Below are positions 5,180 through 20,590 of a stretch of 64,000 nucleotides of DNA, piece after piece; within the stretch, counting starts at the first letter, position 1, and each line of letters opens with the position of its first letter. This DNA comes from Porphyromonas cangingivalis (lineage in GTDB: Bacteria > Bacteroidota > Bacteroidia > Bacteroidales > Porphyromonadaceae): the NCBI RefSeq assembly GCF_900638305.1, contig NZ_LR134506.1:1984001-2048000 (forward strand), written 5' to 3'. The translations under genes were made by a program, and so were the position numbers. Under the pieces are notes generated by a model. It searched no databases and had not been told where the DNA came from. It was given only the letters and a program-made list of their open reading frames with translations.

Positions 5180-7035
5180 TTAGTATTCTACCTTGCCCAT
5201 ATCAGGAGTGACAGCCTCCAAGTCGTATGGAGGGAGTGCCATGATACCGGTACGTGAGCGAAGGCGTTCGATGTGCTTGCGGAGCTCTTGCTCTTCGGGC
5301 GAAAGGATGAAGTTGAAGTTTACCAGACTCTTGATCTCTACCATAGAGAGCCCCAAAAGGTCTTCGAACCAATTCACCTCCTTCTTATTGTAACCCACAC
5401 TGTAGTCACTGCTAAGACCCGCAAGACGAGCCGCTTCGGTGACAGCATCAGTGAGATCCCCGAGTTCGTCGACAAGGCCGATCTCAAGCGCCTTCTGACC
5501 AAGCCATACACGACCTTGACCGACAGAATCGACCTGAGCCTTGGTCATGCCACGACCATCAGCCACCCTTGTGATAAACGTGTCATAGCCCTTTTCGATG
5601 TAGCCCTGCATCACGGCCTTTTCCTTGTCTGTCATAGGACGATAAGGAGTGCCGAAGTCAGCCAACTGCGCCGTTTTGACGGTATCGTAAGACAAGTCAA
5701 GCTTCTGAGCCAAACCGGTAAAGTTGGGGAACAGCCCGAAGATTCCGATCGAACCGGTCAATGTGTACGGATCGGCATAGATCTTAGAAGCTTCACAAGA
5801 GATGTAATAACCACCCGATGCGGCATAATTACCCATAGAGACAACGATAGGTTTCTTCTCCTTGAGTCTCTTGACCTCATGATGGATGAGCTCCGAGAGG
5901 AATGCATCCCCACCGGGAGAGTTGACACGGAGGACCACAGCCTTCACACTTTCGTCATCCGCGACATCACGAAGTTGCTTGATCAGATCACGGTTGATGG
6001 TCGCTTCTTCGCTCATGGTTGGGAATGGCACATCGACAAGATCCTTGTCCACGATGGCACCTTCGGCAAAGAGGACAACGACATCCCCCATCTTTCTGAT
6101 ACCCTTCCTTGAAGATGCAAGCACATCTCCCACAGAGAGGTAGTCAATCTCCGCTTCTCTGTCCCCCACGAGGTTCTGAGCGATGACCTCATCGAAGTCT
6201 GCGCCATAGAGGAGCGAGTCCACAAACTGAAGGCGAAGAGCCTCTTGAGGAGTGTTGAACAATCCCCCCTGTCAGCAAAAGCTTGGATGGAGTCCGGGTG
6301 TATATTACGGCTTTGTGCGATGTCTGCCTTTGTCGAAGACCAAAGACCGTCAAGGTAAGTCTGTATCTGCATCTTGTTTGCATCGCTGAGCTTGGAGTTG
6401 ATATAAGGCTCCACAGCCCCCTTGAACGTGCCGACCTTGAAGACTTGCATCTCCACGCCCAGTTTCTTCAGGATGCCCGAGTAGAAGAGTGTGGTAGACG
6501 AAAGACCCGAGATATTGATCATGCCATAAGGGTTGAGGTATACCTTATCGGCGACACTTGAGACATAATAGTTGCCATAGCCATAACGCTCTGCGTAAGC
6601 GAAGATCTCCTTACCGCTCTTACGGAAGTTGTCAAGATGTTCACGTAGCTCTTGAGCTGTCGCAAACCCCATGCCTGCTCTTTCGAGTTTGAGGACGATA
6701 GCCTCGATCTTTGGATCTTCTGTTGCGATGTTGATCGCCTTGATGATTTCATGGAGAGGGAAGTTTTTTTGCTTCTTATCCCCCTTGCCAAAAGGTAGGT
6801 CGGAATAGAAGTCGCCGGTCTTGGTGTCATTGATCATACCCGAAAGGTCGAGCATAAGGACGCTGCCACTGGAGATCTTCTTGGCTTTCGTTGTGGCTGT
6901 ATCTTTACTGCCGAAGGCATCAGACACGGACGAAACCAATCCCCCCAACATGGAGAAGAACACGAACAATACGATGATGCCGGCGACAACCACGCCAAGG
7001 CACGAAGCCAAAAGCATCTTGAAAAACTGTTTCAT
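5180..7035 (-). pseudogene. sppA: Signal peptide peptidase SppA (67K type), frameshifted
   Basis: A membrane-anchored serine protease of the S49 family that degrades cleaved signal peptides. Read from 7035 leftwards, the first frame has an N-terminal membrane segment (about residues 12-30) and the catalytic-lysine region VGTFKGAVEP (K205). It then leaves frame at a run of six C on the plus strand (6264-6269). The second frame continues with NTPQEALRLQF and holds the catalytic-serine region NYAASGGYYIS and DPYTLTGSIG. One extra G in the tract would restore a single protein of about 610 residues, the usual 67K length. As read, Lys and Ser lie in different frames, so the gene is inactive unless slippage, phase variation or a sequencing error is involved. 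Confidence 0.85.
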
Positions 7036-8187: not shown

Positions 8188-9804
8188 ATGAATAATCTCT
8201 TCATGACATCTCGATACCCTATTATTACAATTATTGCGACCTCTGGCTGTAGAACAGGAACTTTGTTGCAGCAAGCTATTCCCTCTGTTTTAGCTCAAGA
8301 TTGTCTTCCTTGTGCTTGTATTGTGGTCGATGATAACAATGCCCCGGCTGAGTATAGCAAAATCAGCTTGGGGCTTGAAGAGTTACAGAAAAGAACCGCT
8401 GTAGAGCTTAGGTTAATCCGAAATAATCGAACTTCTGGGTTCTCAGGAACCGGAGCCTGGAATACTGCAATAGCTTATGCACGCAAATATACAGCTGAGC
8501 ATCACTGGGAAGATGTCTATATCTCTATACTTGATGATGACGATCGGTGGCATAGCAGCCACCTCCGACGCTGTGCCGAGGCTATGTGTAGCAATCCTGA
8601 TGCTATCTTCTGCAACCTGACTCGTGTATACCACCAACACGGGGAGTCAGGAAAACTCAAAAGTCATAGCGACCTCACTATTCCTAAATTTCTCTACGGC
8701 AATCCAGGGGTTCAAGGGAGCAATATGTGTTTTCGTCTCTCAGCCATTGAGACTATAGGAGGCTTCGATGAGACACTAAGGAGCTGTACCGATAGAGATC
8801 TTATGATTCGCTTTTTGGAGCGATTTGGCAATAAAAATATTGTGGTTATTGACGAACAGACTGTTTGGCACGATGCCCGTTCACCAGCCTGTGTTACGAA
8901 CAATATTGAAAACAAAACAGCTGGCTTAGATACTTTTTATAAGAAACACCTGTGGCGCTTCGATGAACCAACACTTGAGCGCTCTCTTATGCGTGCTGAA
9001 AAGCTGTTTTCTTATCCTCATAAACAGAAAATCTGGGAGAGTTACTACCAAGCCCAGGAGATTATTGCCATTATGATGCCCCTGCATAATGGCGCCAAAA
9101 GTATCCGTAGGGCAGTACGTTCTGTAGTGACACAGGAGCGTACGGAGCGACCCATAGTACTATTTATCGGAGATGATGCTTCGACAGATGGATGGAGAGC
9201 TGAAATTTCGGATTGCCTCTGCCTCTACCATAATATTATCACCATAGATATAAATGGAGGCTCTCCTGCCAAAGCACGCAATGCTCTAGCGGAGTATATC
9301 CTTAGATCCTATCCGCATACTTACATACTGTGTCGCCTAGATGTCGATGACGAACTCCATAGCACAACAACTCTCTCGGAAATAGAGTATTTGTTTGCAG
9401 ATGACGAGGTAAATGCAGTACTCTGTGGCAATTATCAAATACACAGAGGTAGGATCGTTGGCATCAATCGGGCGAGCAAAGATTTTCATAATAGCGAATA
9501 TATGAGGAGACGGCTACTGTCTATGGCTCTGGGGGATCGCACTGCAGAGCTACCTTCGTGCAATCTGTGTCTTCGTCCAAGTGTTTATCGCCCTTACCCC
9601 GATGAATGCAGTGGAGAGGATCATTGGTTGGTTATCCAGACCCTACTTCGACTCCCAAGCCGCTCCTTCCTTATGGCTTCTCAGCAGATGTACTGTATGT
9701 ACAGCTTGGAGGGCAAGACCACACAAACAAATAAAGTCAACGACAGTTATATTGACAGCAGAAAAAGACTATATGAGTACTATATCAACAGTATTGACCG
9801 CTAG
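8188..9804 (+). CDS. Tandem family-2 glycosyltransferase (two GT-A domains)
   Basis: 538 residues with two GT2-like domains in series. Domain 1 (about 10-215) starts IITIIATS and has VVDDN near 47-50, a four-Asp metal/nucleotide motif at 116-119, and the acceptor-side GGFDE and DRDLMIRF elements near 191-210. Domain 2 (about 291-490) starts IIAIMMPLHNGAKSI and has IGDDAS (328-332), DVDDE (385-389) and a GEDHW block near 476-480. No membrane segment is apparent. The start at 8188 is chosen because the -7 box overlaps earlier candidates. The gene overlaps the next one by 32 nt. The product probably transfers two sugars or alternates in a polymer; substrates cannot be read from sequence. Confidence 0.85.
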   Translation: MNNLFMTSRYPIITIIATSGCRTGTLLQQAIPSVLAQDCLPCACIVVDDNNAPAEYSKISLGLEELQKRTAVELRLIRNNRTSGFSGTGAWNTAIAYARKYTAEHHWEDVYISILDDDDRWHSSHLRRCAEAMCSNPDAIFCNLTRVYHQHGESGKLKSHSDLTIPKFLYGNPGVQGSNMCFRLSAIETIGGFDETLRSCTDRDLMIRFLERFGNKNIVVIDEQTVWHDARSPACVTNNIENKTAGLDTFYKKHLWRFDEPTLERSLMRAEKLFSYPHKQKIWESYYQAQEIIAIMMPLHNGAKSIRRAVRSVVTQERTERPIVLFIGDDASTDGWRAEISDCLCLYHNIITIDINGGSPAKARNALAEYILRSYPHTYILCRLDVDDELHSTTTLSEIEYLFADDEVNAVLCGNYQIHRGRIVGINRASKDFHNSEYMRRRLLSMALGDRTAELPSCNLCLRPSVYRPYPDECSGEDHWLVIQTLLRLPSRSFLMASQQMYCMYSLEGKTTQTNKVNDSYIDSRKRLYEYYINSIDR

Positions 9805-12800
9805 GCAGAGAACAGCCTGGCTCATACTACCCAATGATGTACAATCTTCAGTACGGCTACTAGGTCAGGGAGGGGAAGGAGTAGTTTTCGCTACGTCAGA
9901 TAAAGTCTACAAAGTTTATGACCAGCTAGAGGATAAAGATTATTGGCGTATTAAACGGAGCCTTGATAGAGCACATAGCATTCGTTGCATTTATCCCATA
10001 GAGAGCTTCGAACCAGTGGGTACAGGCTATTACATTATGGTGTACCCCTATGAGGCCTCTATCCCAGCGACGGATATTGCTACCGAAGAATGGCAAGATA
10101 TGCTTGCTGAGCTATGGGTCGCTGGCCTTATCGCCTTTGACGTTAAGCCTAGTAACTTCGTTCGTACGGATAATGGGGTTAAACTCATTGATTACAATCT
10201 GTATTTTCATACAGATAATCACTTCCTCAATATGTGCGTTCGGGCATTCATATATAATAAATATCGAGGGCGGGATGACGAATACTTACGCAAGCTAGCT
10301 CGGAGTGCTATCAATCAGTTTGATTTGCCAGAGCTGGTGGGTATACAAGAGTTTGTCAACGGAGTGTATCTGCGTGCCATCCATCTGTCATCAAAGAAAG
10401 GTATTCAGCAGCTTGAAGGCGTCTCTGTGCTGGGGAAAAAGCTGGATGTGCCATTTGAGGTATTAGGCAATCTTGAGCTACGCTTTTTTGAAGAGTTACG
10501 TAGAGGGCGCTATTTGACAGGAGGATCTATCCGAGGACTTTTGCTAGGGAAAAAGGGGTATCTAACGCCTCGGGAGGTAGTGCTAGGTTATCACGATATT
10601 ACACGTTTTAGAGAGCCTGTTTCCTTGGTCGTCAAGACGTGTGCGCAGGATTATGCTAGTATTTATGCAAATGTCTGTCACATTGTGCGTCAGCTCTCCT
10701 CCCCACATCGATTTGACGAGTATATTCTAGCCATTGATACCCGAACCGATGATTTTCTTCGTCAGTTTACTCAAGAAGCATCTTGGGATAAGCTCCTAGA
10801 GGAGGCTAATAAGCTCATTCATAATGGTGTTATTGATAAATATATCATATTACCCGAGACGGAAGTCGTCGCCATCAACGAGCGATGGTTCGGGATAGCC
10901 TCCCCTTGTACTCATAGTCAACACCAAGCACCAGTTACTGCTCAGCTCTATCTCTTTGAGGAGGCCAAAGGCAAATATATTCTTCAGATGGATAGCGATG
11001 TACTAATCGGCCGTGATGACCTCATGCATGATTACCTAGAGGATATGGTGCGTGAGCTTGAGGAGCATCCATCAGTGGTATCGGTAGGATTTAATATATA
11101 CCAAGATAAAGGCATCAAGTTCAAGCCATACTTTGGTTACGAAGACGGAGGATTTGCTCCAGAAGTGCGTATGGGATTGTTTGACAAGGAGCGCATGCTA
11201 GCTATGCGTCCTTTCTACAATCAAGTTCTAGATAGAGGCTGGGAATATACCTGGTTTAGGTCTATGCATCTCAAGCAAAAGGATTTGGGCATGAGCTCCA
11301 TACGAGGTGGGGACCGACGTACATTCTACATTCATCCTCAAAACTACCGCAAATCGGTATCAGACGTTTGGCTAACTATACTAGACCGAGTAGAGCAAGG
11401 ACATATCCCCGATTGTCAATATGGAGCATTTGACTGTATGGGGAGCTACTATGACTGGTGTCTTCCCCGTAGAGAAGAGCCCTATGTCTTCGTTTGTACT
11501 GTACGCAATGTGGCCTATGATAGATTTCTCAGGATGTTTGCCTCTTTGCTTGCTCAGCGTGATGAGCGTTGGGGCATGGTACTCATCGACGATGCCTCGG
11601 ACAATGGCCTATCTCTCTTTATAGAGTATATAACGAAACCATTCAGAGATAGAATAACATTGATTCGCAACAGGGTAAGGGGTGGTGGCTTATACAACCA
11701 TCATAAAGCAATTCACTATTTCGTCAAAAAAACAGATACTGTCATCATCACTCTTGATGGAGACGATGCTCTCCTAGGAGACAAGGTCTTGTCTATGATA
11801 GCCAATCGCTATGAAGAGCACTTTGCAGATGTAGTGATAGGGCGTATGTATCAGAACTATCGTCTACAGCCTCACTATCGCTATCCCGCGAACTACGTGA
11901 ATCCACGTGCCACGGGAGGCAATGTATGGCAGCATACACGCTCATTTCGCAAATACCTTTTTGACTCGCTCGAGGCAAAAGACCTCAAAAGAGTCCCAGA
12001 CAGCGGCAATCTCAGCAAGGTTGTAACAAAAAGTAAATGGCTTGAGAACAGTGCCGACTTTGCCTTTATGGTTCCCATCGTGGAGATGAGTCGAAAGCCC
12101 AACCAACTAGAGCAGTTTACCTACTATTATGACAGAGATGCAGAGGCTTATACCGAGGAGGTACGACAGAGCAAAGAGCGTAATATCGCTTATATTCTGA
12201 ATAGGCCAGCTAAGTCTCCTAGTGATGTCCACATTGGTCGGAGAACGTTTATTCCCAACACCAATAAGATCGAGATCGATATCACCTATATCTGCAATCT
12301 TGGCTGCGAAGCCTGTAATCGCTCTTGTCCACAGGCCCCCACTACGGAGCAGATGACCCTCCTTGACATAGAGCGCTTTGTCGAGGAAAGCATAGAGTTG
12401 GGTAAGCGGTGGGAGTTCATCAACATATTGGGAGGAGAGCCTACCTTACATCCAGAGTTGAGAGAGATAGTATCGTGTATCATAAACGAATATATCCGAC
12501 CTTGTTCTCCTCAGACCCAAATTCAAATTGTTAGCAACGGATACACCGAATATAGTAGGATCTTACTACAAGAACTTCAAGATACTTATCCCGAGCTTTG
12601 GGTAGATCGCTCGTCGTTCAAAACAAGTAAAAAGGTCGAATACTTCTCCCCATTTAACGATGCACCTATTGACGACCCGCAGTTTGCCGATGCTCAGTAT
12701 CATAAAGGGTGCTGGGTGACAAGTTTTTGTGGTATAGGTCTTAATCGCTATGGCTACTATGCTTGTAGTGTATGTGGAGGCATAGATCGTGTGCTCAATC

Positions 12801-13015
12801 AAGAGCGTTGTGCTATTGGTAGTCTCAAGGAGGTTAGCGAGGATAAATTGAGAGCACAGCTAGAGCGTTTCTGTAGACTATGTGGCAACTTCAAGGATTA
12901 TGATCATAATCAGGGTCTTTTCATACCACGTGTAGAGAAAGCTCCTCTCAGTGAAAATAAGATTTCTCCATCTTGGAAAAAGATTTATGACAGCTATAAA
13001 CAAAGAAAAAAGTAA
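9773..13015 (+). CDS. Kinase-like / two glycosyltransferase / radical-SAM fusion protein
   Basis: 1080 residues, four domains. (1) About 25-180 is protein-kinase-like: glycine loop GQGGEG (31-36), beta-3 lysine K47 in VYKVY, catalytic loop FDVKPSN (D123, K125, N128) and a DFG equivalent DYN (140-142). (2) About 280-560 is GT-A-like, with DSD at 407-409. (3) About 570-790 is a second GT2-like domain, with LIDDAS (604-609) and DGDD (662-665). (4) About 830-1050 is radical SAM: CxxxCxxC at C841, C845, C848 and GGEP at 887-890. It is followed by a C-terminal cysteine set (980, 986, 998, 1001, 1013, 1034, 1037) that resembles a SPASM-like auxiliary Fe-S region. ATG 9773 is chosen because the frame upstream of it only shadows the previous gene. 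It overlaps both neighbours (32 and 29 nt), so translation is coupled. I do not know a characterised protein with this architecture; a role in building and modifying a surface glycan is inferred. Confidence 0.8.
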   Translation: MSTISTVLTARQRTAWLILPNDVQSSVRLLGQGGEGVVFATSDKVYKVYDQLEDKDYWRIKRSLDRAHSIRCIYPIESFEPVGTGYYIMVYPYEASIPATDIATEEWQDMLAELWVAGLIAFDVKPSNFVRTDNGVKLIDYNLYFHTDNHFLNMCVRAFIYNKYRGRDDEYLRKLARSAINQFDLPELVGIQEFVNGVYLRAIHLSSKKGIQQLEGVSVLGKKLDVPFEVLGNLELRFFEELRRGRYLTGGSIRGLLLGKKGYLTPREVVLGYHDITRFREPVSLVVKTCAQDYASIYANVCHIVRQLSSPHRFDEYILAIDTRTDDFLRQFTQEASWDKLLEEANKLIHNGVIDKYIILPETEVVAINERWFGIASPCTHSQHQAPVTAQLYLFEEAKGKYILQMDSDVLIGRDDLMHDYLEDMVRELEEHPSVVSVGFNIYQDKGIKFKPYFGYEDGGFAPEVRMGLFDKERMLAMRPFYNQVLDRGWEYTWFRSMHLKQKDLGMSSIRGGDRRTFYIHPQNYRKSVSDVWLTILDRVEQGHIPDCQYGAFDCMGSYYDWCLPRREEPYVFVCTVRNVAYDRFLRMFASLLAQRDERWGMVLIDDASDNGLSLFIEYITKPFRDRITLIRNRVRGGGLYNHHKAIHYFVKKTDTVIITLDGDDALLGDKVLSMIANRYEEHFADVVIGRMYQNYRLQPHYRYPANYVNPRATGGNVWQHTRSFRKYLFDSLEAKDLKRVPDSGNLSKVVTKSKWLENSADFAFMVPIVEMSRKPNQLEQFTYYYDRDAEAYTEEVRQSKERNIAYILNRPAKSPSDVHIGRRTFIPNTNKIEIDITYICNLGCEACNRSCPQAPTTEQMTLLDIERFVEESIELGKRWEFINILGGEPTLHPELREIVSCIINEYIRPCSPQTQIQIVSNGYTEYSRILLQELQDTYPELWVDRSSFKTSKKVEYFSPFNDAPIDDPQFADAQYHKGCWVTSFCGIGLNRYGYYACSVCGGIDRVLNQERCAIGSLKEVSEDKLRAQLERFCRLCGNFKDYDHNQGLFIPRVEKAPLSENKISPSWKKIYDSYKQRKK

Positions 13016-14018
13016 AAATAATAGGTGTATTCTCATCACGGGAGTTGCTGGGTTTATTGGGTCGCATTTGGCTCATAGCTTATTGGAGGATAAAGTTGCG
13101 GTAGTAGGTGTAGACTCTCTCTCCGATTATTATCCTATAGAGATCAAGCTAAGAAGGCTCGCATCTCTGCAGTGCTTCCAATCTTTTGTTTACTATCACG
13201 CTTGTGTCTCAGAGTCCATGAGTTTGACGAAAATCCTTGAAACTCACACTCCGACACTTGTTATTCATTTAGCAGCACAAGCAGGAGTCGTTGCCGAGGG
13301 ACATCTAACCCCTAGCTACATAGAGAGTAATATCTACGGAGCAGAGGTGGTTATGCGTCTGTGTGCTCATCTGGGAATCCCTCTTATATACGCCAGCTCT
13401 AGTAGTGTATATGGCGATTGCTCGAATGTCCCCTTCCTCGAGTCTGAGGCGACTCTATCACCCAAGAGTCTGTATGCTGCTACCAAACTATATAATGAGC
13501 AGGTTGCATCCTTTTATGCCAAACATCTCAACCTCAAAGCCGTTGGTCTTCGTTTCTTTTCTATCTATGGGGAAGATATGAGACCAGATATGGCAATCAG
13601 TTTATTTACCTCGGCGATATATCACGGCAAACCAATCACTCTCTATGGAAATGATGCTACAGCTCGAGATTTTACCTACATCAAAGATTTAGTTTGTGTG
13701 ATAAAACAGGTTACTCAAAAACTTCATGAGGGGGAAACTCTTGCTCCGATATACAATATTGGGAATCAGTCTCCTGTGCCTATAGAGAGGGTCGTTAGAA
13801 TACTAGAGAAGCTATTGAATAAAACTAGTAAAATCACACATAGCCCATTGCGTCCAGGGGAAGCACAACTGACCTATTCGGACTCATCTCTATTATATAG
13901 AGACTTAGGTATTCGACCAAACACTACAATTGAGGAGGGGCTGAAGTGCTATGTGAAATGGTATCTAGCCAATAATTCGAACATACAACCAAAAAATAAA
14001 GATGGCAGTGTGTCATAA
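12987..14018 (+). CDS. NAD-dependent nucleotide-sugar epimerase (extended SDR)
   Basis: 343 residues of extended short-chain dehydrogenase/reductase type. The NAD-binding motif GVAGFIGSH lies at 19-27, the serine-rich strand near 137-140 and the catalytic YxxxK as Y163-AAT-K167. The later ARDFTYIKD and YNIGN segments are typical of UDP-glucuronate 4-epimerase and UDP-glucose 4-epimerase relatives. It would supply the sugar nucleotide used by the two upstream glycosyltransferase proteins. ATG 12987 follows an AG-rich stretch and overlaps the upstream gene by 29 nt. The exact epimerised sugar is not clear; the WcaG/CapI type is the closest guess. Confidence 0.88.
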   Translation: MTAINKEKSKNNRCILITGVAGFIGSHLAHSLLEDKVAVVGVDSLSDYYPIEIKLRRLASLQCFQSFVYYHACVSESMSLTKILETHTPTLVIHLAAQAGVVAEGHLTPSYIESNIYGAEVVMRLCAHLGIPLIYASSSSVYGDCSNVPFLESEATLSPKSLYAATKLYNEQVASFYAKHLNLKAVGLRFFSIYGEDMRPDMAISLFTSAIYHGKPITLYGNDATARDFTYIKDLVCVIKQVTQKLHEGETLAPIYNIGNQSPVPIERVVRILEKLLNKTSKITHSPLRPGEAQLTYSDSSLLYRDLGIRPNTTIEEGLKCYVKWYLANNSNIQPKNKDGSVS

Positions 14019-14567: not shown

Positions 14568-14598
14568 AAAATGCAGAAAAATTTGTTTGTTTGAAATA

Positions 14599-14620
14599 TT
14601 GTTCGTAGTTTTGCGAACAA
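14599..14620 (+). promoter_or_regulatory. ars promoter with ArsR operator over the -7 box
   Basis: The -7 box TAGTTTTG (14606-14613) is framed exactly by perfect inverted 7-mers TTGTTCG (14599-14605) and CGAACAA (14614-14620). A dimeric repressor bound here would block RNA polymerase. This is the expected layout for ArsR autoregulation of the operon that follows. Confidence 0.65.
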
Positions 14621-14640
14621 CAAATAAAGGAGATAGAATT

Positions 14641-14958
14641 GTGAAGATTAAGAATGACATTGAAGAACAGGAATTAATTGCCCGCTTTGCAAAAGCAATG
14701 GGACATCCTACCCGGATTGCGATACTACTGTTTTTGGCATCGCAAGAAAGTTGTTTCTTTGGGGATATTCACGATGAACTTCCGATAGCTAAAGCGACCG
14801 TATCACAGCACTTAAAAGAACTCAAAGATGCGGGCTTAATTCAGGGAGAAATCGAAACCCCGAAAGTGAGGTATTGTATCAATAAGGAGAACTGGGAAAT
14901 AGCCCGAAAGTTATTTGCAGACCTTTTTAATGTATATGTAAAAGATGTATGCTGTTAA
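14641..14958 (+). CDS. arsR: ArsR-family arsenite-responsive repressor
   Basis: 105 residues if started at GTG 14641, which has GGAG 11 nt upstream and lies downstream of the promoter. A winged helix-turn-helix core is visible: [13 protein letters not shown], then [18 protein letters not shown] as recognition helix, and a wing with PKVRYCIN. A cysteine sits in ESCFFG and two close the protein (DVCC). In this family As(III) binding to cysteines releases the repressor. It is first in the arsenic operon and probably binds the inverted repeat over its own promoter. Confidence 0.88.
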
Positions 14959-15037
14959 TCAGCATATATTTTTTCCGACAGACGTTCGTTGTTTGGCGAA
15001 CTACATTCATTTGGTATGTTCAGATAAATAAAGTGAT

Positions 15038-15532
15038 ATGAAAATTAGAAAAGTAAAATTAGAAGACGCCCGTAGGATTTGTGAAATATATAACTATTAC
15101 ATTGAGAATACGGCTGTAACATTTGAAACTGCTCCTGTTTCAGTAGAAGAAATGAAAGGACGTATCAGTGAGATTATTGATTCCGGATTTTCCTATTATG
15201 TCGGAGAAATCAATGGTAATATAGTAGGATACTATTACATCCACAAATGGAATGGCAGGTGTGCTTATTCATCTACAAAAGAGGTTACAATTTATTTAGA
15301 TAAAGACCATACCGGAAAAGGATTTGGAACAGTGTTATACAACCATCTATTCCAAAACTTAGATAAAAAAAATATCCATGTGTTAATTGCTGGAATTTGT
15401 ATTCCAAATGAAGGCAGTGTAAAGTTGCACGAGAAATTTGGATTCAAGCAAGCTTCACACATGAAAGAAATAGGATGGAAATTTAATCAATGGCAGGATG
15501 TCGGTCATTGGTTGCTTAACATAAATAATTGA
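15038..15532 (+). CDS. arsN1: GNAT acetyltransferase, arsinothricin resistance type
   Basis: 164 residues, GNAT fold of the phosphinothricin/arsinothricin acetyltransferase group. Visible are IRKVKLEDA at the start, VTIYLDKDHTGKGFGTVLY (the acetyl-CoA pyrophosphate loop) and the IPNEGSVKLHEKFGF block typical of Pat/Bar proteins. In arsenic operons this gene (arsN1) acetylates the organoarsenical antibiotic arsinothricin. Assignment rests on the family and the ars context; a related herbicide-type or amino-acid substrate cannot be excluded. arsC starts 4 nt after it. Confidence 0.75.
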   Translation: MKIRKVKLEDARRICEIYNYYIENTAVTFETAPVSVEEMKGRISEIIDSGFSYYVGEINGNIVGYYYIHKWNGRCAYSSTKEVTIYLDKDHTGKGFGTVLYNHLFQNLDKKNIHVLIAGICIPNEGSVKLHEKFGFKQASHMKEIGWKFNQWQDVGHWLLNINN

Positions 15533-15536
15533 AGCT

Positions 15537-15962
15537 ATGAAAATACTTATTCTATGTACTGGTAACAGTTGTCGTAGCCAAATGGCACATGGGTTCTTGC
15601 ATTCTTTTGACCCATCACTAAAAGTATATTCCGCAGGGACAAAAGCGAGTGGAAAATTAAATCCTCAAGCAGTGGAAGTTATGAAAGATGCCGGAATAGA
15701 TATTTCACACCATACATCCGACAATGTAGATAAATACTTGAATGAAGAATGGGACTATGTTATTACGGTTTGCGGTGGTGCAAATGAAAGTTGTCCTACC
15801 TTTTCCGGTAATGTAAAGAATCGTTTGCACATAGGATTTGAAGACCCATCAGAAGCAACGGGTTCGCCTGAATTTATCCACTCTGAATTTATTCGGGTAA
15901 GGGACGAAATTAAAGAAGCATTTTATAAACTATATATCGAAAAAATAAAAAGCAATGAGTAA
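15537..15962 (+). CDS. arsC: Arsenate reductase, thioredoxin-coupled
   Basis: 141 residues, low-molecular-weight phosphatase fold. The P-loop is CTGNSCRS (C7, C12, R13). The second redox pair expected in the Staphylococcus pI258-type enzyme is seen in [10 protein letters not shown], giving three cysteines for the thioredoxin-linked disulfide relay. It reduces arsenate to arsenite for export by the Acr3 pump. Its end overlaps the acr3 start by 8 nt. Confidence 0.9.
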
Positions 15963-16989
15963 AAAGAAAATGAGTTTTTTAGATAAGAATCTCACTCTTT
16001 GGATATTTTTGGCTATGGCTATTGGCGTTGGGCTGGGTTACTTTTTCCCATCATTCAGCAGTACAATAGATTCATTATCCAGTGGAACTACAAACATCCC
16101 TTTAGCTATCGGTTTAATCTTAATGATGTACCCACCATTGGCAAAGGTCGATTACAAACAATTACCGAAGGTTTTCAAAAACGTAAAAATATTATCAGTC
16201 TCGTTAATCCTGAACTGGATTATCGGGCCAGTATTAATGTTTTTACTTGCCATCTTCTTCTTACACGATTACCCGGAATATATGGTAGGAGTAATTCTTA
16301 TCGGATTAGCACGATGTATAGCGATGGTTCTTGTATGGAACGACTTCGCAGAAGGAAATACGGAATACGGTGCAGGATTAGTAGCCTTAAACAGTATCTT
16401 TCAAGTGTTCTTTTATAGCTTTTACGCTTGGTTGTTTGTTACAAAACTTCCTCCCCTATTCGGGTTTGAAGGGGCTATCGTTGATATTTCTATCGGTACG
16501 ATTGCCGAAACGGTTGCTATCTACTTAGGTATTCCTTTCTTGATGGGAATATTAAGCCGATTTATATTGGTAAAATTAAAAGGAGAACAATGGTATAAAG
16601 AAAAGTTCATCCCTAAAATATCCCCTATAACTTTAATAGCACTGCTGTTTACTATCATCCTTATGTTCAGCCTGAAAGGTGAACTGATTGTGCAAATACC
16701 ACTGGATGTAGTTCGCATAGCTATACCGTTACTTATCTACTTTGTGGTGATGTTCTTGCTTAGCTTCTTCGCAGGTAAGCTTATGGGGGCTTCTTATGAT
16801 AAAAATGCTTCGATTGCCTTTACTGCAACCGGAAACAATTTTGAACTGGCTATCGCAGTGGCAATCGGTGTATTCGGATTACATAGTGGGCAAGCCTTCG
16901 CCGGAGTAGTCGGACCTTTGGTCGAAGTCCCGGTATTAATCCTGTTGGTAAACTTAGCATTTTGGCTTCGGAAGAAATATTATAAATAA
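15955..16989 (+). CDS. acr3: Arsenite efflux permease, ACR3 family
   Basis: 344 residues with about ten hydrophobic segments. The conserved cysteine of the family lies in [15 protein letters not shown] and the [12 protein letters not shown] block is present near the C-terminus. It exports As(III) across the inner membrane. Although Acr3 works on its own, arsA and arsD later in the operon suggest an ATP-driven or chaperone-assisted mode. It overlaps arsC, so translation is coupled. Confidence 0.92.
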
Positions 16990-17019
16990 ACATAGTACAA
17001 ACCAATAAAAAGAAAATGT

Positions 17020-17454
17020 ATGAAGAAATGTATTTTAATCGGACTTTTTGCTGTATTGCTGGTTGCTTGTGGTGGTAATACACAAAAGAAAAACGGACAA
17101 GCTGCTGAATCTGAAACGGCAGCTAAAGAACAAGTTGCAGATGCTTCTGTGGTGAACGTGTATTATTTTCACGGAAAGCAACGCTGTAAGACCTGTGTGG
17201 CAGTTGAGAAAGTAACAAAAGAAACTATCGAAAAGGCTTTTGCTGATAACAAGAAAGTCCGTTTTGTAGAAATAAACACGGAAGATAAAGCAAATGCTAA
17301 ACTGGTAGAGAAGTATGAGATTACTTGGAATGCCCTTATCATTGAAAAAGGCGATAATTATATCGACCTGACAAAAGAAGGTTTCGCCAATGCTGTCAAT
17401 ACTCCTGACGTGCTTACAGAACTGATTAAGAAAGAAGTAAACGCAAGGCTATAA
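17020..17454 (+). CDS. arsF: ArsF-family lipoprotein (aromatic arsenical resistance)
   Basis: 144 residues. Lipoprotein signal with lipobox LLVACG (Cys17), a charged linker, then a thioredoxin-like domain with CKTC in GKQRCKTCVAVEK. Proteins of this type are annotated as ArsF, a subunit of a nitrophenyl-compound nitroreductase acting with ArsE on nitroaromatic arsenicals such as roxarsone. Here it stands directly before arsG and arsE, which supports the name. The reductase activity is known only from the family, not visible in the sequence. Confidence 0.75.
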   Translation: MKKCILIGLFAVLLVACGGNTQKKNGQAAESETAAKEQVADASVVNVYYFHGKQRCKTCVAVEKVTKETIEKAFADNKKVRFVEINTEDKANAKLVEKYEITWNALIIEKGDNYIDLTKEGFANAVNTPDVLTELIKKEVNARL

Positions 17455-17459
17455 TACCT

Positions 17460-18161
17460 ATGATGGAGTTTTTACAAAATCTTGTCGATGGGTCTAATTT
17501 CCCACTACTGACGGCATTCTTGCTCGGCTTAATGACTGCAATAAGTCCTTGTCCGTTGGCTACCAACATTACGGCTACGGCTTATTTAAGCAAGGATATT
17601 GCCGACAAAAGGCGGGTACTACTTAACGGGGTTTTCTATACTCTTGGCAGGATGTTTTCTTATACGGCTCTTGGAACTATCTTCTATTTCGGAGCAAGTC
17701 AGTTTCAGATAGCAAGGTTTCTTCAAAATATCGGTGGATTTTGGCTGGGGATAGCATTAGTTATAGTAGGAATCTTAATGCTCGATGTAATAAAATTCAA
17801 GTTTAATGGAATGAATAAACTTACATCAGGATTGGAAAATAAGCCAAATAAACGGAATTACTGGAATGCCTTTTTGATGGGAGTTGTGTTTGCTTTGGCT
17901 TTTTGTCCATATAGCGGAGTTCTTTACTTCGGGGTGCTTATACCTATGACGATAGCCAGCCCGTCAGGATTATTACTTCCTCCGGTATTTGCTATTGCCA
18001 CCGGGTTACCTGTAATAATCATCGCCTGGTTATTGGCATATAGTATCGGGAATGTCGGAAAGTTCTACAATAATATGAAAACCTTTCAGGTATGGTTTAA
18101 GCGGATAGTAGCTGCCATCTTTATCATCGTAGGAGTTTATTATATCATTACAAATATTTAA
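17460..18161 (+). CDS. arsG: ArsG-family efflux permease for aminoaromatic arsenicals
   Basis: 233 residues with about six membrane segments. The protein resembles the cytochrome c biogenesis/DsbD transmembrane family: ISPCPLATN in the first segment and FALAFCPYSGVL in the fourth carry the paired proline/cysteine motifs of that fold. In arsEFG clusters this protein exports the trivalent aminoaromatic arsenicals made by ArsE/ArsF. It starts 5 nt after arsF and ends 11 nt before arsE. Confidence 0.78.
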   Translation: MMEFLQNLVDGSNFPLLTAFLLGLMTAISPCPLATNITATAYLSKDIADKRRVLLNGVFYTLGRMFSYTALGTIFYFGASQFQIARFLQNIGGFWLGIALVIVGILMLDVIKFKFNGMNKLTSGLENKPNKRNYWNAFLMGVVFALAFCPYSGVLYFGVLIPMTIASPSGLLLPPVFAIATGLPVIIIAWLLAYSIGNVGKFYNNMKTFQVWFKRIVAAIFIIVGVYYIITNI

Positions 18162-18172
18162 AGAGAACGAAA

Positions 18173-18406
18173 ATGGAAATTATAGTATTAGGCACTGGAT
18201 GTGCAAATTGCAAAACCACGTATAACAGGGTTGCCAAAGTAATTGCCGACACGAACAGTAAAGCAACTTTGAAGAAAGAAGAAGATATACTGGAGATAGT
18301 GAAGTATAACATTATGTCGTTACCCGCTATCGTTGTGGATGGTGAAGTGAAAATAAAGGGCTATGTACCATCCGAAGAAGAGATAAAGAAATTAGTAACA
18401 GAATAA
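18173..18406 (+). CDS. arsE: ArsE-type small thioredoxin-family protein
   Basis: 77 residues, one thioredoxin fold. The redox motif is GTGCANCK near the N-terminus and the cis-proline strand is seen as MSLPAIVVDG. It has no signal peptide, so it is cytoplasmic. Its position between arsG and arsD supports the ArsE role, the partner of ArsF in nitroaromatic arsenical reduction. On sequence alone it could be a generic small redox protein. Confidence 0.72.
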   Translation: MEIIVLGTGCANCKTTYNRVAKVIADTNSKATLKKEEDILEIVKYNIMSLPAIVVDGEVKIKGYVPSEEEIKKLVTE

Positions 18407-18417
18407 ATAAAAATGAT

Positions 18418-18771
18418 ATGGTTGATTTAAAGTTAGATACCCGGAAAGCCGTAAAGATATACGACCCGGCATTGTGTTGTCCTACCGGACTATGTGGGGT
18501 AAATATAGACCCTGAATTAATGCGGATAGCAGTTGTTATCGAAAGCCTGAAAAAGAAAGGCGTTATCATCGAACGCTTTAATTTGCGTGACCATCCACAG
18601 GTTTATGTTGATAACAAGAAAATCAACGAATACCTGATGAAAGAATCGGCAGAAGTGCTTCCTATCACAACACTGGACGGTGAAGTCGTTCTGACAAAGC
18701 AATACCCCTCAAATAAGCAGATTGCAGAATGGTTAAATGTCCCCGAAGAGGACTTGACCGTTAAGAAATAA
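18418..18771 (+). CDS. arsD: Arsenite metallochaperone ArsD
   Basis: 117 residues. The three arsenite-binding cysteines are seen as C20, C21 and C26 in ALCCPTGLCG, with the same spacing as C12/C13/C18 in the E. coli plasmid protein. ArsD passes As(III) to ArsA. It precedes arsA by 100 nt; that gap holds GGATGTTTACATCC, a small palindrome near 18837. Confidence 0.9.
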   Translation: MVDLKLDTRKAVKIYDPALCCPTGLCGVNIDPELMRIAVVIESLKKKGVIIERFNLRDHPQVYVDNKKINEYLMKESAEVLPITTLDGEVVLTKQYPSNKQIAEWLNVPEEDLTVKK

Positions 18772-18871
18772 CAGTAACAATAATCAGGTTTACAACAATT
18801 TATTCTATCTGTAAAAATAGGTAGAACAGGATGTTTACATCCCAGATTGTAACCATAAAACAGATATAGAT

Positions 18872-20590
18872 ATGAAAAAGTATAATCCGGCAAACGAAAA
18901 ACTTACCCAGTATATATTCTTCACGGGTAAAGGTGGCGTTGGGAAAACATCCATCGCCTGTGCTACGGCAGTGAATCTCGCTGATAACAGTAATAAGGTA
19001 CTTTTGATAAGTACCGACCCTGCATCCAATTTACAGGATGTATTTGATATGCCGTTAGACAATAAGGGAACAGCTATTAAAGAAGTTCCAAACCTTACAG
19101 TAGTCAATCTTGACCCGGAACAGGCAGCAGCCGAATACCGGGAATCAGTTATCGCCCCTTATCGCGGGAAATTACCCGAAAGCGTTATTACCAATATGAA
19201 AGAACAGCTTTCAGGTTCGTGTACCGTTGAAATTGCAGCTTTTAATGAGTTCTCCGACTTTATTACCAACGAAGAAAAGCGCAGGGGATTCGACTATATC
19301 ATCTTTGATACTGCACCTACCGGACATACCCTGCGAATGCTTCAACTGCCATCGGCATGGAACACTTTTATTGCCGAAAATACAACCGGAGCATCTTGTT
19401 TAGGACAGCTTTCGGGACTGGAAGACCGTAAAGAAGTATATAAGAATGCTGTTGCTACCCTGACAGATAAAACCCAAACTACACTTTTCCTTGTCAGCAG
19501 ACCGGAAGAAAGTCCTTTGAAAGAGGTCGAACGTTCATCTAATGAGCTGCTGGATTTAGGCATTGAAACACAGTATCTAATTATAAATGGAGTTTTAGAA
19601 AACTACGATGCAAACGACAGTATTTCCAAACAGATTTACGAACGCCAGCAAAATGCACTCAATAACCGTTCGTCAGCCTTGTTAAAACTGAATACATACA
19701 TAGTTCCGCTTCGTTCTTATAATATGACAGGTATTGATAATATCCGTAATATGCTGAATGCAGATGTAACCATAAAGAACGATGTGGCGCATATTGAAAA
19801 AGATGATTTCAATACGATTGACAGCGTTATTGAAGACCTCTACCAATCGGGTAAGCGTGTAATTTTTACGATGGGTAAAGGTGGTGTCGGCAAAACTACT
19901 ATTGCTGGGAATATTGCTCGTGGGTTGGCTAAAAAAGGCGTAAAAGTGCATTTGACTACAACTGACCCAGCCAATCACCTGTCCTTCATCGAAACGAAAT
20001 TAGATGGTATTACAGTAAGTCATATAGACGAAAAAGCGGTGCTTGCCGCTTATCAGAAAAACGTATTGGATAAAGCAAGGGAAACAATGGGTGATGCCGA
20101 TTTAAGCTATATCGAAGAAGACCTGCGTTCGCCCTGTACACAGGAAATCGCTGTTTTTAATTCCTTTGCCGAAATTGTTGCCAAAGCGGATAATGAAGTG
20201 GTAGTGATAGATACTGCCCCTACCGGACACACGTTGCTATTATTGGATTCAACTCAAAGTTATCATAAAGAAGTGGAACGGACACAGGGAAATATTACTC
20301 CTGCGGTTCAAAACCTGCTGCCTCGTTTACGGAATGAGAAGGAAACAGAGGTGGTTATTGTAACTCTGCCCGAAACAACGCCTGTATTTGAAGCACAAAG
20401 GCTGCAACAGGATTTACAACGTGCCGGAATTAAAAACAAATGGTGGGTAGTTAATTCCAGTCTGCTGCTTACTTCAACGAATAGTCCTTTCCTTAAAGCC
20501 AAAGCACTAAGCGAAGTACAATGGATTAATAAAGTAAAGGAAATTTCAGAGGGAAACTTTGCAGTTATAGAATGGAAAGAAAAGGTGTAA
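18872..20590 (+). CDS. arsA: Arsenical pump-driving ATPase ArsA
   Basis: 572 residues in two homologous halves, each with a deviant Walker A: GKGGVGKTS at 19-27 and GKGGVGKTT at 335-343. Each half also has the DTAPTGHTL switch motif, and SCTVEI and PCTQEI lie at the metal-site cysteines. The enzyme drives arsenite efflux with ArsD as loader. It closes the arsenic operon and is followed by an intrinsic terminator. Confidence 0.93.
   Translation: MKKYNPANEKLTQYIFFTGKGGVGKTSIACATAVNLADNSNKVLLISTDPASNLQDVFDMPLDNKGTAIKEVPNLTVVNLDPEQAAAEYRESVIAPYRGKLPESVITNMKEQLSGSCTVEIAAFNEFSDFITNEEKRRGFDYIIFDTAPTGHTLRMLQLPSAWNTFIAENTTGASCLGQLSGLEDRKEVYKNAVATLTDKTQTTLFLVSRPEESPLKEVERSSNELLDLGIETQYLIINGVLENYDANDSISKQIYERQQNALNNRSSALLKLNTYIVPLRSYNMTGIDNIRNMLNADVTIKNDVAHIEKDDFNTIDSVIEDLYQSGKRVIFTMGKGGVGKTTIAGNIARGLAKKGVKVHLTTTDPANHLSFIETKLDGITVSHIDEKAVLAAYQKNVLDKARETMGDADLSYIEEDLRSPCTQEIAVFNSFAEIVAKADNEVVVIDTAPTGHTLLLLDSTQSYHKEVERTQGNITPAVQNLLPRLRNEKETEVVIVTLPETTPVFEAQRLQQDLQRAGIKNKWWVVNSSLLLTSTNSPFLKAKALSEVQWINKVKEISEGNFAVIEWKEKV

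Follow-up and report, generated by a model that had tools for sequence, protein, structure and literature searches.

A Porphyromonas cangingivalis gene fusing kinase-like, glycosyltransferase and radical-SAM domains belongs to a rare cassette that may build and edit a glycan

A three-gene cassette around a four-domain protein

The present analysis concerns a stretch of 64,000 nucleotides from Porphyromonas cangingivalis (assembly GCF_900638305.1, contig NZ_LR134506.1, positions 1,984,001 to 2,048,000 of the forward strand), referred to here as the window, and in particular a gene in which a kinase-like domain, two glycosyltransferase (GT) domains and a radical-SAM domain are joined in one frame (Table 1). 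This fusion gene is the second of three overlapping genes, situated between one for a two-domain glycosyltransferase (GT1-GT2, protein P0010) and one for an SDR nucleotide-sugar epimerase. It overlaps the former by 32 bases and the latter by 29 bases (with the likely SDR ATG at 12987), figures that depend on start codons picked by reading the sequence. At 9755-9805, the stop of the GT1-GT2 gene overlaps the start of the fusion gene beside an A5 run. The fusion frame has zero internal stops along its 1080 residues, and the genome forms a single contig of 2,404,857 bases; thus, an assembly break within the gene, as considered in an earlier note on this DNA, is unlikely.

Table 1. Features of the cassette in the window and of the two loci of the related system B (for the latter, positions are those of the respective locus).
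Feature	Positions	Strand	Extent	Basis or content
GT1-GT2, two-domain glycosyltransferase gene	8188..9804	+	538 aa	Pfam, Salinivibrio relatives, DDDD and DVDD/ED motifs
Kinase-GT3-GT4-radical-SAM fusion gene	9773..13015	+	1080 aa	Open frame and relatives
Protein-kinase-like domain	9785..10384	+	residues 5-204	Conserved residues, profile and model
GT3, GT-A type glycosyltransferase domain	10595..11452	+	residues ~275-560	DSD motif
GT4, GT2-family domain	11453..12235	+	residues ~561-821	DGDD motif; best Glycos_transf_2 stretch 575-714
Radical-SAM domain	12236..13012	+	residues 822-1080	Pfam Radical_SAM, CxxxCxxC 841-848, five conserved late Cys
SDR nucleotide-sugar epimerase, UDP-glucuronate 4-epimerase-like	12987..14018	+		Pfam, PDB matches, Vibrio SDR relatives
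System B, locus L036	1-7515			AsnS-NAT-GT1-GTc (1453 aa), GCHII-NADAR-kinase (542 aa), SDR 39% identical to window SDR
System B, locus L032	6708-13230			GT1-x-kinase-GTc (1116 aa), GCHII-NADAR, AsnS, NAT; after tra genes on plasmid

The earlier note had also proposed that motifs of all four domains can be recognized in the protein, and each of them was found where it had been placed: GQGGEG (residues 31-36), K47, DVKPSN (123-128) and DYN (140-142) in the kinase-like part, DSD (407-409) and DGDD (662-665) in the glycosyltransferase part, and CxxxCxxC together with GGEP (887-890) in the radical-SAM part, followed by seven cysteines beyond residue 975 (980, 986, 998, 1001, 1013, 1034 and 1037). 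The key residues recur in relatives of 22-43% identity, strongly indicating that the motifs are beyond chance. We conclude that the fusion protein is a genuine four-domain enzyme with a kinase-like, two GT-A type and a radical-SAM domain, the first being backed by profile search and a predicted model, the second and third by Pfam and the last by its sequence. The reading given in the earlier note, which is confined to this single protein, holds only in part: the fusion is real, and the unit is larger and includes the GT1-GT2 and epimerase genes.

Both glycosyltransferase proteins match Pfam Glycos_transf_2 in two stretches each, the fusion protein at 3.8e-19 (69.7 bits, cut-off 23.3) and the GT1-GT2 protein at 1.3e-23 (84.2 bits, same cut-off). 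By pattern, a DxD motif is present in each of GT1, GT2, GT3 and GT4 at 9 of 9 loci, a count that omits loci L031 and L032, and a second GT1 pattern matched six of the nine; the DDDD and DVDD/ED motifs of GT1-GT2 are likewise present at all nine. The window GT4 is 28-31% identical to its Vibrionaceae counterparts. In the class to which Vibrio belongs, two genomes have stand-alone relatives of GT3 (L058, 1042-1968, 308 aa; L059, 1468-2412, 314 aa) with further glycosyltransferase-like genes as neighbours.

A Pfam scan of the kinase region returned nothing at E<=0.5, the fold of residues 5-204 being recognized by the profile search and the model mentioned above. GxGxE, K47, N128 and D140 (the DFG Asp) are invariant in 10 of 10 family sequences, and the domain, as judged from its sequence, keeps the ATP-binding residues. 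At the catalytic-base position, D123, Asp occurs in the fusion protein only; the other nine sequences, seven of them from Vibrionaceae, have Asn. The kinase is also the module with the lowest conservation (22-28% identity). Because of the replaced base, the active phosphorylation suggested in the earlier note is not supported, and phosphorylation across the family appears doubtful.

Residues 822-1080 are assigned by sequence to the radical-SAM superfamily. Pfam Radical_SAM matches the fusion protein at 1.9e-8 (35.1 bits, cut-off 29.5) and its stand-alone relative from Salinivibrio, P0004, at 36.9 bits. CxxxCxxC and GGEP are invariant in eight of eight aligned sequences, as are the late cysteines 980, 986, 998, 1034 and 1037, while 1001 and 1013 vary; seven of the eight are from Vibrionaceae, and the conservation is thus one between two lineages. 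The spacing C986-x11-C998 ... C1034-x2-C1037, to which Cys980 is additional, resembles what we take to be the pattern of a twitch-type auxiliary [4Fe-4S] cluster. No SPASM family was matched in Pfam at E<=0.5. Profile matches in the PDB (Tes, 3e-6; a designed coiled coil, 9.8e-6; YydG, 2.2e-5; and others) cover the common core only and therefore support the superfamily and no specific reaction; BtrN, NeoN and HygY are absent among the PDB sequence matches. Viperin was tried as an identity and rejected (NCBIfam viperin_w_prok, 23.5 bits, cut-off 180). Structural modeling gave a kinase fold, as the earlier note had expected, but for the separate radical-SAM domain only a poor model (pLDDT 47.3), from which no significant fold match was obtained.

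The window SDR matches Pfam Epimerase at 1.2e-46, and its closest solved relatives are PDB 5u4q (4.3e-59) and 6zl6 (1.5e-39). We take 6zl6 to be a UDP-glucuronate 4-epimerase, and the RPDMA stretch of the window SDR is presumably typical of that family; the protein reaches the NCBIfam cut-off neither for galE nor for dTDP-glucose 4,6-dehydratase. Two UDPG/MGDP-dehydrogenase genes, one of them Ugd-like by reading, lie in the genome, so that a supply of UDP-glucuronic acid (UDP-GlcA) is plausible.

Counterparts in Vibrionaceae and a sister system

A tblastn search of plasmid records revealed the window modules in Salinivibrio kushneri (NZ_CP114591), where P0003 corresponds to GT1, P0002 (1020 aa) to GT2-kinase-GT3-GT4 and P0004 to the radical-SAM domain. 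The fusion protein is 33% identical to P0002 over residues 281-821 (2.8e-79) and 41% identical to P0004 (3.4e-55); the window GT1 is 29% identical to P0003, and the window GT2 32% identical to the N-terminal part of P0002. The accessions of the Salinivibrio/Vibrio cassette (WP_269587817, WP_269587818 and WP_269587820) are uncharacterised. A scan of a species-genome collection, relying on two short peptide patterns, yielded three Vibrio loci among 30 stretches tested, and relatives of P0002 at E<=1e-12 occur in 8 of 296 Vibrionaceae genomes, the three Vibrio genomes of that scan among them. The radical-SAM gene is present in six of these eight and was not found in the other two (G415 and G569).

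The layout in Vibrionaceae is SDR, GT1, GT2-kinase-GT3-GT4, P0005 and radical-SAM. Window and Vibrionaceae hence have in common the modules and their order, GT1-GT2-kinase-GT3-GT4, plus radical-SAM, at about 22-41% identity per module, as the earlier note had thought worth looking for. They differ in that Vibrionaceae encode GT1 by a gene of its own and join GT2 to the kinase, which has Asn for the catalytic Asp; P0005 is additional there, and the radical-SAM gene is free-standing on the opposite strand. That two distant lineages keep the order while the gene borders shift cannot be explained by chance. Since GT2 and kinase form one frame in Vibrionaceae, the border between them in the window could have arisen by a later split or could mark a coupled restart. 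The SDR beside the cassette is 38-39% identical to the window SDR at four loci (L033, L034, L051 and L054), broken at two (L035 and L052) and was not found beside the cassette at L053 and L055. P0005 (about 256 aa; L033, 11541-12311, and homologues) adjoins the cassette at all eight Vibrionaceae loci read; it has no credible Pfam or PDB match, and its GNGPG...RFNQ stretch is, we presume, reminiscent of sialyltransferase-type enzymes.

The cassette is rare. The fusion protein matched 2 of 41 close genomes at E<=0.001, its own and one with a short radical-SAM match, and 47 of 393 genomes within the order: its own, one in the kinase region (G383), three in the GT4 region and the rest with short radical-SAM matches. 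Using a GT3-GT4 profile, only the own genome was recovered among 395 genomes of the phylum at E<=1e-10; in the class to which one of the Vibrio genomes belongs, 369 genomes yielded this Vibrio itself and, besides, three partial matches. Similarly, a kinase profile found only the own genome among 295 genomes of the order at E<=1e-6; G383, which contributed to that profile, gave no match among the 295 and was probably not drawn into the sample.

The positions of the Vibrio cassettes are island-like. Within some 10 kb of L033 lie genes for McrBC, HipA, a restriction-like AAA protein, UvrD helicase and HNH, and the neighbours of L034 include a WYL regulator and a protein of 930 aa that weakly matches LmuB (1e-6). 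The open reading frames (ORFs) flanking L035, L051 and L054 agree in length with those of L034. L031 adjoins ylqF and insertion sequence (IS) elements, with L053 and L055 apparently in a similar setting, judging by reading and ORF length. Near L034, L052 and L054 there are transposase genes. In the window, G+C at third codon positions is 0.42-0.44 in the two glycosyltransferase genes and 0.38 in the SDR gene, compared to 0.59-0.64 in three upstream core genes. The best reading is that this small, rare cassette, which occurs in very different bacteria, is mobile. By reading translations, the cassette is followed at 14587-20590 by an arsenic-resistance block of lower G+C (ArsR, ArsC-like, ACR3, ArsD, ArsA-like, thioredoxin and DsbD-like). 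Upstream, at 5180-7035 on the minus strand, an sppA-like protease gene appears, by reading, in the form of two overlapping frames (360 and 340 aa), as a frameshift would produce.

The kinase-like domain recurs in a sister system, here called system B, in genome G383 (L036) and on a Pseudoalteromonas plasmid (NZ_CP032092, L032). Both loci share GT1 and the kinase-like domain with the cassette, and L036 the SDR as well. Where the cassette has GT2, GT3, GT4 and radical-SAM, system B carries a GTP-cyclohydrolase II (GCHII)-NADAR protein, an asparagine-synthase-like (AsnS) module, an N-acetyltransferase (NAT) and another glycosyltransferase. A fusion of GCHII with COG3236 (NADAR) is described for riboflavin biosynthesis in an excerpt of PMC5312566.

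Proposed product and competing explanations

That glycan building and a radical-based modification are combined here, as the earlier note had proposed, remains the best reading, and we see an even chance that the three-gene cassette makes and edits one glycan. According to this reading, it likely builds a uronic acid-containing oligosaccharide that is edited by radical chemistry. UDP-GlcA would be made by the UDP-glucose dehydrogenase of the genome and converted by the cassette SDR to UDP-galacturonic acid, or the reverse; GT1 and GT2 may start the chain, and the GT3-GT4 tandem could add the next sugars, as in two-domain glycosaminoglycan polymerases. Located between GT2 and GT3, the kinase-like domain might bind ATP and either phosphorylate a sugar or gate assembly as a pseudokinase; given that most members have Asn in place of the catalytic Asp, the latter is the likelier role for them. 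Finally, the radical-SAM domain would abstract a hydrogen atom from a carbon of the sugar ring. Cys980 is a candidate H-atom donor and in this role would point to epimerisation, not oxidation. An excerpt of PMC5682303 describes Cys as the H-atom donor of the radical-SAM epimerases YydG and NeoN and states that the auxiliary cluster of YydG is thought to recycle this residue. As neither flippase nor polymerase nor exporter is encoded in the cassette, its product would most likely be a short oligosaccharide attached to a carrier of the host, e.g. lipid A-core, or else a soluble glycoside.

The closest structural comparison is with the chondroitin polymerase K4CP of E. coli and the heparosan synthase PmHS2 of Pasteurella, which have two tandem GT-A domains; the presence of a uronate-type nucleotide-sugar enzyme in the window cassette fits this comparison. 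They are the best Foldseek matches of the full fusion model, at about 12-13% identity and with poor superposition, indicating a likeness of fold type only; in contrast to their systems, the cassette is without capsule export genes, and the fusion has the additional kinase-like and radical-SAM domains. In a bold elaboration, which we consider very improbable, the kinase-gated set of four glycosyltransferases would make a glycosaminoglycan-like uronic acid glycan with GT3-GT4 as the polymerase pair, and the fused twitch radical-SAM domain with Cys980 as donor would invert a ring carbon, e.g. uronate C5; if true, radical chemistry would replace the two-base C5-epimerase of other organisms. With respect to the radical-SAM domain, the sugar-acting twitch enzymes BtrN, NeoN and HygY appear to resemble that of the window in CxxxCxxC, the late C-x11-C ... 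C-x2-C, one additional conserved Cys and the carbohydrate context, and differ in that the window domain is fused to glycosyltransferases and a kinase.

Alternatively, it might be speculated that the product is a soluble glycosylated small molecule, nucleoside- or aminoglycoside-like, with the kinase-like domain serving activation or self-protection and the radical-SAM domain tailoring it in the manner of NeoN, BtrN and, reportedly, BlsE. We regard this as rather unlikely. Two observations speak for it: the recurrence of GT1 and the kinase-like domain in system B, a link that would favour a small-molecule product and is the main cause of our only moderate confidence in a plain glycan, and the lack of a flippase, polymerase or exporter among the cassette genes. 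Excerpts of PMC10991966 and PMC5682303 also show that radical-SAM enzymes acting on sugars, such as NeoN and BtrN, are known. However, the cassette is without a base, amide-bond or acyl-transfer gene, and four glycosyltransferases with a uronate-type epimerase are usual for glycans.

A role in phage defence or island maintenance, whereby a target is glycosylated or phosphorylated and infection is blocked with the help of a viperin-like radical-SAM enzyme, is improbable. The defence-type neighbours of L033 and L034 would fit such a role, and among the PADLOC models the radical-SAM part matches pVip only (fusion protein 2.4e-7, P0004 4e-10). The score far below the viperin cut-off argues against it; moreover, PADLOC gave no match for P0002, P0006, P0008 or P0010 (E<=0.05), the four L034-type loci seem to represent a single island and are counted as one case, and L031, apparently with L053 and L055, lies by ylqF and IS elements and the window copy by ars genes.

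Quite improbable, too, is a chain-terminating polysaccharide synthase, whose kinase would phosphorylate the non-reducing end and thereby stop GT3-GT4, in the way in which kinase-methyltransferases act on some O-antigens. The earlier note had drawn a comparison with WbdD, and indeed O-antigen chain terminators, WbdD among them, pair a kinase with multi-module glycosyltransferases. Such kinases are described, e.g. for Klebsiella pneumoniae O7, in an excerpt of PMC11231755, and the fusion protein itself retains a catalytic-type Asp (D123), Lys, Asn and the DFG Asp. The comparison nevertheless fails, as Pfam found no methyltransferase domain in the fusion protein, GT1-GT2 protein or SDR (E<=0.5) or in P0002 (E<=0.1). 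Furthermore, the catalytic Asp is absent from nine of ten family sequences, the cassette genes include no exporter, and conservation is lowest in the kinase module. An assembly error or fortuitous fusion of unrelated frames, which a single carrier in the phylum sample (1/395) might suggest, has a negligible probability; the single-contig genome speaks against it, and it is refuted by relatives in Vibrionaceae with the same module order and conserved motifs.

The kinds of enzymes involved are known, while their combination and the cassette appear to be new; in line with the earlier note, no characterised kinase-GT-radical-SAM protein was found in searches of the Creative Commons-licensed literature of PubMed Central. 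If the glycan reading is true, radical-SAM editing would be built into a glycan-assembly line together with glycosyltransferases and a kinase-like domain, and would have been carried between phyla in the form of a small cassette. The cassette offers a compact system in which radical chemistry on sugar chains, and the part that pseudokinases play when glycans are assembled, could be studied; it also leads to the sister system that has GTP-cyclohydrolase II-NADAR and asparagine-synthase-like modules.
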